DNA from: Bacteroidales bacterium
GTDB lineage: Bacteria > Bacteroidota > Bacteroidia > Bacteroidales > UBA1715
Length of the DNA: 64,000 nucleotides
Reading direction: 5' to 3'
Assembly (NCBI GenBank): GCA_024409235.1
Contig: JAKSUA010000002.1
Location: 66,385 to 130,384, forward strand
The notes under the pieces were generated by a model. The model saw only the letters and a program-made list of their open reading frames with translations. It searched no databases and had not been told where the DNA came from. Positions 58,726 to 62,851 of this stretch are shown here, in pieces. Numbering within the stretch: the stretch's first letter is position 1; each line of letters starts with the position of its first letter. The position numbers and the translations under genes are program-made.

Positions 58726-59433
58726 ATGGCAAAGAAAAAGGGATCTAAAGACAGAAGCTACGAGTTGAAAAAACTTAAGGCTGAGTGTGTTGCAGAAGAA
58801 AACAGTCGTTACATTAAATCTCAAAACAAAAGAAAACTTGGTAGCGGCGAAGCTCCTGCGGGAAACACTGGACTTAAAGCTACGAAAAGCGAAGTTTTCA
58901 TTTTTCTTGTAGGACAAGAAGAATCAACGAAAAACATTCAAGAACAATTCAAAACAACGAGAAGCTACAAAAAAACGAAATCTTTTACTGACGCTGAATC
59001 GGCAAAGAATTTCTTGGATGTCACAAAATTCCCTAAAAACTCAATCATCACAATGATTCTTGTTGCACCTGATTTCGCAAAAGAAGAAGATATCCAAAGC
59101 GAACTTGATGTAATTGCTAAGATTAAGGAAGAAGACCCTAGTTTGGACGTAATTCTTCTTTCTGCATCATCAATTTATACAAGCGTAGCTGATTTTACTG
59201 TTCAAAAAGCAAGCGACGCATTTGGAAAGATTGTTACAAATATCACATGGGCAATCCGCGAACAAGATCGTATCCGTCGCCAAGTTGAATCAAAACAATT
59301 TATCAAAATCGCAATTATCGTATTCTTTGTATTCTTTATCTTAATTTTCGCAATAGATTTCATAACAGGAATGATGGATACTTCCCCAAATCCTTCGGGA
59401 ATTTTCAACATTCTTCCTATTCCTCACGAATAA
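58726..59433 (+). CDS. Membrane-tethered protein with a receiver-like domain lacking the phosphorylation site
   Basis: The 235-residue protein has three parts: a basic N-terminal segment (1-50, MAKKKGSKDRSYELKK...), a domain at about 56-180 with the alternating strand/helix order of response-regulator receivers, and one transmembrane helix at about 193-216 with a short tail. In the receiver-like part, strand 1 reads EVFIFLVG without the usual acidic pair. The position of the phospho-aspartate has Ala114 (MILVAPDF), while the Ser of strand 4 (ILLSASS) and a Lys (VQKAS) remain. It could be a phosphorylation-independent interaction module. No partner gene is adjacent. The function is unknown and the homology is by eye. 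Confidence 0.6.
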   Translation: MAKKKGSKDRSYELKKLKAECVAEENSRYIKSQNKRKLGSGEAPAGNTGLKATKSEVFIFLVGQEESTKNIQEQFKTTRSYKKTKSFTDAESAKNFLDVTKFPKNSIITMILVAPDFAKEEDIQSELDVIAKIKEEDPSLDVILLSASSIYTSVADFTVQKASDAFGKIVTNITWAIREQDRIRRQVESKQFIKIAIIVFFVFFILIFAIDFITGMMDTSPNPSGIFNILPIPHE

Positions 59434-59454: not shown

Positions 59455-59487
59455 AAAAAAGCAGTTGGTAATCCAACTGCTTTTTTT
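59455..59487 (+). terminator. Terminator of the 58726-59433 gene
   Basis: A-run, GCAGTTGG, TAAT loop, CCAACTGC, T-run: perfect stem. Confidence 0.92.
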
Positions 59488-61516: not shown

Positions 61517-62851
61517 ATGAAAACGAAGAAAATCATATCCATTTTAATTACCTTATTGATTTACAATCTTGCTTTCTCGCAAATTTTATACGATCAATAT
61601 GCAAACTCTTCGTATGCAAAAATCAAATCATTCAAAATGGTTCCCGTTGTCGAAGAAAGGAAAGGTTATATTTTGCACTATGGTCCAGAAAATGGCGATT
61701 CTCTAGCAAATCCTGTATTTCCATTATTAGGGAATTGCGGTTTGATGGTTGATTTTGATATTTTAGAAGAATCTACACGAGATTTACGCTATGAAGTTAT
61801 TCATTGCGACAGAAATTGGAAAGAAGATGAACTTCTTGAAGGTGAATACGTTACCATTAAAGAAGATTTAGTATTAGATGGCGACCGAGCCGAAAGTTCT
61901 TTTAGCACAACTGTCCCATATATTCACTATAGTTTTATGTTTCCTTTTTCTGATATAACTCTTCATGTATCAGGAAATTACATTCTTAAAATCTATGAAT
62001 TAACCGACGACGACAAAATCGTGCCACTTATACAGAAACGATTTGTTGTATATGAACAATTAGTTGAAATCCAAGGAGAAGTAAAGCGACCAAATGTTGT
62101 GCAATACATTGACTCACATCAACAAATAGAAGCAAAAATTATTCCTCACGGATTTGACTTGTCGTCTTTCGACAAAGATTTATTTGTTGTGTACAGACAA
62201 AACGGACGCTGGGACAAAACAATTAGTGGCATACAGCCAAGCCATATATCTGGTGATGGAAGTCTTATCTTCAATAATAATAGAAATGCACTTTTCGAAG
62301 CTGGTAACGAATTTCGTCAATTTGTATTCAGAAACTTAAGAATAGCTACTTTCCCTATCGATTACATAACCAAAGAAAACGGATTATTCACCGTGTATCT
62401 CCATCCCGACGACGATTGGCACGCAGCCTATACATCAACAACAGACTTAAACGGAAAATTCATAATACAAGAAGAAATAAGTCCACAATCATCTGATTAT
62501 ACCGCAGATTACGCAACAGTAAAATTCACATTGCCATATCACAAAACAATGGATGACACGCTTAATCTATATGTCTGCGGAGAGTTCAACGACTGGAAAA
62601 TGAATGAAGAAAATAAGATGACATACAACATTGAAAAACAACAATATGAGGCGTCTATTCTATTAAAGCAAGGCTGTTACAGTTACACTTATATTAGAGC
62701 ATCAAACAACTTCAAAACAATTGATTTTTCGTCTATTGATGGCAATTTTTACCAAACAGAAAACGAATACGAAATATTCGTGTATTACTACGACTATAGC
62801 ATTGGATACGACCGCTGTATTGGCTACAAAAGAATTTATACAAATTTTTAA
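61517..62851 (+). CDS. Type IX secretion plug protein (DUF5103)
   Basis: Envelope protein of 444 residues with signal peptide (MKTKKIISILITLLIYNLAFSQ). The family is called the T9SS plug because a member closes the lateral opening of the SprA translocon. Visible family features: IKSFKMVPVVEERKGYILHYG near the N-terminus, GLMVDFDILEESTRDLRYEVIHCDRNWKEDELLEGEYV, and the later PYIHYSFMFPFSDITLHVSGNYILKIYEL. The C-terminal part has an immunoglobulin/CBM-like strand pattern (YVCGEFNDWKMNEENKM). Its presence fits the two T9SS cargo proteins in the window. It stands 35 nt after the epimerase gene. Confidence 0.85.
   Translation: MKTKKIISILITLLIYNLAFSQILYDQYANSSYAKIKSFKMVPVVEERKGYILHYGPENGDSLANPVFPLLGNCGLMVDFDILEESTRDLRYEVIHCDRNWKEDELLEGEYVTIKEDLVLDGDRAESSFSTTVPYIHYSFMFPFSDITLHVSGNYILKIYELTDDDKIVPLIQKRFVVYEQLVEIQGEVKRPNVVQYIDSHQQIEAKIIPHGFDLSSFDKDLFVVYRQNGRWDKTISGIQPSHISGDGSLIFNNNRNALFEAGNEFRQFVFRNLRIATFPIDYITKENGLFTVYLHPDDDWHAAYTSTTDLNGKFIIQEEISPQSSDYTADYATVKFTLPYHKTMDDTLNLYVCGEFNDWKMNEENKMTYNIEKQQYEASILLKQGCYSYTYIRASNNFKTIDFSSIDGNFYQTENEYEIFVYYYDYSIGYDRCIGYKRIYTNF

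Follow-up and report, generated by a model that had tools for sequence, protein, structure and literature searches.

The gene at positions 58726 to 59433 of the window, the 64,000-nt stretch of a Bacteroidales genome analysed here (G000; 2.62 Mb in 66 contigs), encodes a protein of 235 residues that descends from receivers and is almost certainly a pseudo-receiver. The phospho-acceptor Asp has been lost in the genus to which the genome belongs, and the gene is under purifying selection rather than decaying. Pseudo-receivers are already known; what is new here is that the window gene belongs, as one of several branches, to an htpG-linked family of tail-anchored receivers. On balance, we favour an origin of this putatively tail-anchored pseudo-receiver from a phosphorylatable ancestor, followed by a change to a phosphorylation-independent, partner-binding scaffold at the membrane.

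The gene was delimited from its open reading frame and from orthologues in the genus and family. A stop codon sits one codon 5' of the ATG at 58726, so M1 is the sole ATG start. From N- to C-terminus, the product consists of a basic helix, a CheY-like domain (about residues 57-183), a single predicted C-terminal transmembrane helix and a tail of 22 residues. The features are as follows.

58726..59433, forward strand: whole gene, encoding the predicted tail-anchored pseudo-receiver of 235 aa.
58744..58839, forward strand: conserved basic N-terminal helix, residues 7-38; helical in the model and invariant at 20 of 32 positions in seven genus members.
58894..59274, forward strand: receiver-like (beta-alpha) domain without helix 4, residues 57-183, from alignments, models and structure comparison.
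58912..58917, forward strand: Gly63-Gln64, standing where L008-L010 have the acidic pair Asp-Asp; from alignments.
59062..59064, forward strand: Val113 at the place of the phospho-acceptor Asp by gap-free reading; alignments give a gap or Ile, Phe or Thr.
59161..59163, forward strand: Ser146, the switch Ser/Thr, retained, from alignments.
59164..59196, forward strand: beta-4/beta-5 region, shortened and lacking helix 4, residues 147-157, from sequences and models.
59206..59208, forward strand: Lys161 at the conserved Lys position, from alignments.
59275..59307, forward strand: basic juxtamembrane segment, residues 184-194; 8 of 11 positions invariant in the genus.
59308..59364, forward strand: predicted transmembrane helix, residues 195-213, which in the models extends helix 5 without a break; from hydropathy and models.
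59365..59430, forward strand: conserved tail without Lys or Arg, residues 214-235, predicted to be periplasmic; mean pairwise identity 0.74.
59455..59486, forward strand: intrinsic-terminator-like hairpin directly 3' of the gene, with 14 pairs and a T run (1 observed against 0.3 expected from shuffles).

The window protein is recognised as a receiver solely through relatives that bridge the gap. Searched directly, it matched no receiver model in Pfam, no model in NCBIfam and, by sequence, no receiver in the PDB; its weak matches to MPK1_gelsolin_C, Sigma_reg_N, Orf78 and photosystem II I are below the cut-off or cover the membrane helix only, and were rejected. The orthologues L008-L010, from sister genera of the same family, are 40-42% identical to the window protein, and the two that were scanned match Pfam Response_reg (PF00072) at 1.3e-13 (L009) and 4.6e-13 (L008). 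Among relatives searched against NCBIfam, L016 and L009 match generic receiver models, far below the cut-offs. In addition, the window protein scores 38.9 bits with a profile built from 18 tail-anchored receivers of other families, the window genus being left out.

Two AlphaFold2 models of low to middling confidence, each computed from a three-row alignment, have mean pLDDT values of 54.5 for the whole protein and 70.4 for the trimmed model (residues 55-215). Both show the order beta1-alpha1-beta2-alpha2-beta3-alpha3-beta4-beta5-alpha5, in which helix 4 is absent and helix 5 runs into the membrane helix. In the VIA comparison, the best Z among the matches listed was 12.4 for the whole model (118 residues, rmsd 2.8) and 10.8 for the trimmed one. 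The best 50 matches are receiver-containing proteins by title and mostly cover residues 54-183, or 1-135 of the trimmed model; the 3H5I fusion and a flagellar C-ring protein among the matches are presumably receivers as well. Foldseek alone gave weak results (best E 8.4e-4 and 8.6e-3), with a few sugar isomerases and other proteins in its lists. The receiver-like fold put forward in the sequence-only reading, which had named structure prediction as the check, was borne out by these CheY-like models and by the Pfam matches of the orthologues.

In a gap-free reading that starts where helix 1 ends (QEQFK) and stops where beta-3 ends, the acceptor Asp of L009 falls on Val113. By the same reading, the position is Val in five, Ile in one and Thr in one of the seven genus members; the multiple alignments give a gap there, or Ile, Phe or Thr in the genus, and never an acidic residue. 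Thus none of the seven members has an acidic residue at the site. The first reading had placed the acceptor at Ala114: it was right that the position is not acidic, and no alignment puts an Asp there, but the aligned residue is Val113. It was also right about the pair, which is Gly63/Gln64. Both switch residues that it described as retained are present, Ser146 as Ser or Thr in 7/7 members and Lys161 as Lys in 5/7, although two orthologues have Arg instead. It had overlooked the shortened beta4-beta5 stretch, in which the Ser-to-Lys span is 7 residues shorter than in L009, and the absence of helix 4 from both models. Where a functional phosphorylatable receiver has an acidic pair and an acceptor Asp, this protein has G63/Q64 and V113; it is a receiver by sequence, through its relatives, without phosphotransfer residues, as pseudo-receivers are.

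The C-terminal transmembrane helix claimed from the sequence is supported as a prediction, since the best 19-residue hydropathy mean, starting at residue 195, is 3.19, and seven Lys/Arg residues in positions 163-194 precede the helix with none in the tail behind it. From hydropathy and charge, the protein is very likely tail-anchored. C-terminal anchoring may be unusual in general, as the first reading had it, but it is the common form within this receiver family.

Selection on the gene was estimated from pairs of orthologues. The dN/dS ratio is 0.036 for the closest pair (G002-G003) and 0.078 for G005-G006; it is 0.060 for G000-G002, at a dS of 2.58 that is near saturation, and dS is saturated for G000-G003. 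Elsewhere in the family, the ratio is 0.082 for an Asp-bearing pair (G008-G011) and 0.181 for a pair that retains Asp without the acidic pair (G012-G013). No stop codons occur in the seven genus orthologues. A map of mean pairwise identity, which covers only the seven Asp-less genus members, shows that the old site is variable (acid site 0.37, beta3-alpha3 loop 0.36), as are alpha2 (0.36), alpha3 (0.38) and beta5 (0.35). The juxtamembrane segment is the most conserved element (0.88), followed by helix 5 (0.79), the N-helix (0.77), beta2 (0.75), the tail (0.74), beta1 (0.71), the membrane helix (0.69) and helix 1 (0.56). That the old site is free while the flanking elements are held is the main evidence for a scaffold over a switch or a relic, and we consider a phosphorylation-independent scaffold probable.

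The idea that a two-component system was lost and that the protein is its decaying relic is hardly credible. The genus is indeed poor in kinases, and helix 4 and all acidic residues of the site are gone; however, dN/dS lies between 0.036 and 0.078 in the three pairs with usable dS, the seven orthologues are free of stops, the flanking elements are conserved, and the gene has been retained away from htpG. It is also highly unlikely that the protein still works as a switch, by modification of Asp116, Ser146 or through a different chemistry, or by binding a small ligand. Ser or Thr at the switch position in 7/7 members, Lys in 5/7 and Asp at position 116 in 4/7 would suit such a switch, and passages of PMC7010744 describe a pseudo-receiver under ligand control, that of ShkA with c-di-GMP. 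Against it, the remaining 3/7 have Gly, Gln or Glu at residue 116, both pair positions are non-acidic, and conservation in the old pocket is among the lowest in the protein.

Orthologues are present in 7/7 genomes of the genus (g1) and in 13/14 genomes of the taxonomic family (f1), with 53-77% identity to the window protein in congeners and 34-42% in six of the seven other family genomes. In G010, the sole tail-anchored receiver found is a second paralogue and the contig ends just beyond it, so that truncation may be enough to explain the missing orthologue. A search of genome contigs turned up just the two nearest titled relatives, both of them Bacteroidales MAGs and one from water-buffalo rumen. 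The family forms a graded series. Members of g2/g3 (G007, G008, G011) have an ordinary site (VDDNE and MDYFLED) together with an N-terminal extension; in g4 (G009, G012, G013) the pair is lost (VIANE/VIADA) and the Asp is retained (IIDHFFE, VIDNFTE); in g1 (G000-G006) both pair and Asp are lost and the helix-4 region is shortened. The C-terminal hydrophobic helix is retained in g1, g2, g3 and g4 alike. In the G007 orthologue (L008; L024:7516-8754, minus strand), the extension before the receiver is Pro/Glu/Lys-rich and about 200 residues long.

The number of HisKA domains per genome is 13-27 in g2/g3, 4-5 in g4 and 2-4 in g1, and that of PF00072 matches is 25-40, 9 and 9-11, respectively, with G010 counted under g2; three HisKA proteins were found in the window genome. 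Kinase loss as a cause of Asp loss fits f1 but fails for family f97, where a rough, unscored first look gave 88-120 receiver-profile candidates in each of four genomes with the Asp-less form. This count suggests many receivers, and kinase loss was therefore rejected as a general cause.

In g2/g3, a second, degenerate tail-anchored receiver lies directly before the ordinary one, and its acidic pair is lost in 3/3 cases. G010 also has such a second receiver, at its contig end. The three are located as follows.

L024:8868-9467, minus strand: second tail-anchored receiver, Glu at the acceptor position.
L025:6755-7297, minus strand: second tail-anchored receiver, Asp at the acceptor position.
L026:5158-5700, minus strand: second tail-anchored receiver, Asp at the acceptor position.

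This pairing of degenerate and ordinary receivers (L024, L025, L026) would suit a decoy or inhibitor, which would act at the membrane, either by docking on a histidine kinase or by pairing with a true receiver, and so block or tune phosphotransfer. PMC12632262 discusses such binding competitors, and helix 5 is conserved in the genus. However, searches of the window genome gave no ordinary tail-anchored receiver alongside the Asp-less one, few kinases are left (2-4 HisKA per genome in the genus as against 13-27 in g2/g3), and helix 1 is just moderately conserved (0.56). We regard a decoy as quite unlikely.

For the wider family, profile surveys were run on 393 genomes of the order and chosen neighbourhoods were read. 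A selection from the profile hits and from a walk along htpG loci provided 95 receiver candidates from 80 stretches, the window included. Of these, 85 were used for the tree; nine without a membrane helix and one partial candidate were dropped, and L030, which is without a membrane helix, was kept. Matches at 1e-25 were present in nine of 296 genomes sampled from the phylum, and only that of L095 has a membrane tail (Asp present), the other eight being without one. As sampled at this cut-off, which misses degenerate forms including the window gene, the tail-anchored receiver family is found mostly in one Bacteroidota order.

Linkage to htpG is a property of the family. At 42 sampled loci from 15 families, the receiver gene precedes htpG (Hsp90) in the same orientation, with a gap of 24-477 nt at 41 of them and of 1191 nt, with one ORF between, at L127. 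Past htpG, the neighbour common to most families occurs in just 6/35 loci. In f1, htpG adjoins the receiver at 6/13 loci (three in g2/g3 and 3/7 in g1), and the gap in the congeners is 24 nt in G006, 25 nt in G005 and 49 nt in G001. A further 79 genomes of the order were read upstream of htpG, a sample biased against the receiver because it was mostly chosen after the profile hits and in which at least four cases could not be judged; a receiver was present in only 4, so HtpG does not generally need one. Meanwhile, a separate clade of 20 tail-anchored receivers, with loci including L255, L256, L258-L267, L132, L138-L140 and L143, is beside htpG in 0/20 cases among the fetched stretches; it has the Asp in 20/20, and its genes are sometimes in tandem. 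One genome, G109, has a second HSP90 gene (C10:12662-14050, forward strand; part in L145) with a Pfam E of 2e-118, and its htpG beside the receiver, on C3, has a weaker Pfam match of 7e-50.

The acceptor Asp is missing in 29/85 rows of the tree, from families f1, f24, f38, f81, f82, f97, f112 and f115; these comprise 23/45 htpG-linked rows and 6/40 unlinked ones. Four f81 rows (L208, L249-L251), which represent htpG-linked, tail-anchored receivers, are uncertain, since their beta-3 ends in IIND with the Asp one residue on; if they are taken as Asp-bearing, the counts become 25/85 overall and 19/45 for linked rows. The replacement residue is Val, Ile or Thr in the window genus, Gly or Ser in f24, Ser in f97 and Gly in f82. 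Asp-less, htpG-adjacent receivers with Ser or Gly are those at L131, L133, L135 and L136 (f97), L124, L129, L134, L137 and L141 (f24), and L142 and L209 (f82).

Plain parsimony requires three changes at the acceptor Asp on the 85-row tree. With no regain and the root on the never-linked clade, there are four losses, or three if f81 is Asp-bearing. The four are those in the window genus, in a tandem paralogue of G007, in f81, and in a 17-row group from six families that may represent one or several events. The loss in the window genus is well supported as an event of its own. The 13 f1 orthologues form a clade (100/100) that contains the Asp-bearing g2, g3 and g4 as well as the Asp-less g1, and a single clade of all Asp-less rows, with labels that wrongly included L025_6755 and L026_5158 (Asp present), was rejected (p-AU 8e-5). 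When the window genus was set aside, a single clade of the other 22 Asp-less rows, f81 included, was not rejected (p-AU 0.242); given this value and the long branches, the relation between htpG linkage and Asp loss is no statistical result.

The window gene itself starts 81 nt 3' of an FkbM-type methyltransferase gene and is followed by the terminator-like hairpin. As had been stated, there is no kinase nearby, none being found among seven neighbouring window proteins scanned with Pfam. Three genes downstream, at 61517-62851 on the forward strand, a type 9 secretion plug-protein domain (PF17116) is encoded. The gene is not beside htpG: it is on contig C12 and htpG on C64, where no recognisable receiver lies upstream of htpG. 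Nor was htpG seen beside the orthologue in G002, G003 and G004. Therefore, the tie of the window gene to htpG is by descent only. We infer that the gene moved away from htpG and has still been kept, which argues for a job of its own.

A further reading takes the htpG neighbourhood as history and the protein as a scaffold for another envelope process, for example with 'c23', a secreted-looking protein of about 290 aa. Two 'c23' members scanned against Pfam and NCBIfam gave no match, and one copy is present in 19/21 genomes tested. It is often encoded upstream of the receiver or of htpG, as in the following examples.

L032:7270-8148, forward strand: 'c23'.
L031:11670-12521, minus strand: 'c23'.

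'c23' lies directly upstream of the receiver at 21/41 linked loci from 8 families, is present in 13/14 f1 genomes, and adjoins htpG without a receiver in L151, L152, L180, L181 and L196; moreover, the gene is off htpG in 4/7 genus members and yet kept. However, no 'c23' was seen beside the receiver gene in any fetched f1 stretch, where htpG adjoins it at 6/13 loci, and the receiver-htpG pair spans 15 families as against 8 for the pair of 'c23' and receiver. We consider this reading unlikely.

Under the scaffold model that we favour, the ancestral protein would have been a normal receiver, open to phosphorylation and ending in a C-terminal membrane tail, with its gene upstream of htpG. The window genus has since lost the acceptor Asp, the metal-binding pair and also helix 4, which in receivers usually forms part of the output face. 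What has been retained is a rod made of helix 5, the basic juxtamembrane segment, the predicted membrane helix and the short tail, as well as the basic N-helix. The protein would lie on the cytoplasmic side of the inner membrane, with the tail beyond it, and partners may be bound through the N-helix and the surface of helix 5 and the juxtamembrane segment, with the receiver body as a spacer, giving a constitutive dock. The best candidate for a partner, tentatively and from gene neighbourhood by descent, may be HtpG-related, either HtpG itself or a membrane client of it. More speculatively still, the protein could be a membrane recruiter of bacterial Hsp90: the receiver might once have tied HtpG to two-component signals, the input then being dropped and the dock kept in several lineages.

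Like the pseudo-receivers or aspartate-less receivers (PsR, ALR) described in parts of PMC12632262 and PMC4395418, the window protein shares receiver descent, is without the pair and the Asp, and is kept by selection; it differs in standing alone with no output domain, in its predicted C-terminal membrane tail, in the loss of helix 4 and in escaping the Pfam receiver model. It would act as other pseudo-receivers that work by protein contacts do in passages of the former review. The text of that review, searched for the words 'transmembrane' and 'chaperone', gave neither of them, and passages of a paper on bacterial Hsp90 (PMC11687934) have nothing on receivers. In the open-licence PMC literature, we found nothing on htpG-linked, membrane-anchored or C-terminal-transmembrane receivers. 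Single-domain response regulators of the CheY and Spo0F type likewise consist of one receiver without an output domain, and 54 Asp-bearing relatives of the window protein have Asp at the second pair position in 51 cases, Ser/Thr in 54 and Lys in 53; in contrast to CheY and Spo0F, the family has a membrane tail, a basic linker and, in many relatives, an htpG neighbour, and the window protein has no acceptor Asp. In the RssB and PorX type, a long helix follows helix 5, as in the window model, and leads to a soluble output domain, whereas that of the window protein enters the membrane in the model. RssB (3eq2) aligns over the whole trimmed model (Z 10.3, rmsd 3.7). With HtpG co-chaperones, the family has only the gene neighbourhood in common, and no sequence relation to any of them.

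A 2025 review (PMC12632262) calls it a mystery how bacterial pseudo-receivers are switched on and off, and leaves it unsettled whether functional convergent evolution has taken place. Within one taxonomic family, we have a natural series with the same tail, from the Asp-bearing g2/g3 through the half-way g4 to the Asp-less g1, and further Asp losses in the order are mostly at the htpG locus. With this series, what is left when phosphorylation goes becomes directly testable. The series also points to a possible Hsp90 adaptor. If the recruitment of Hsp90 were true, it would be a bacterial Hsp90 adaptor made from a signalling domain, and the losses would represent parallel evolution of pseudo-receivers inside one family of related genes.
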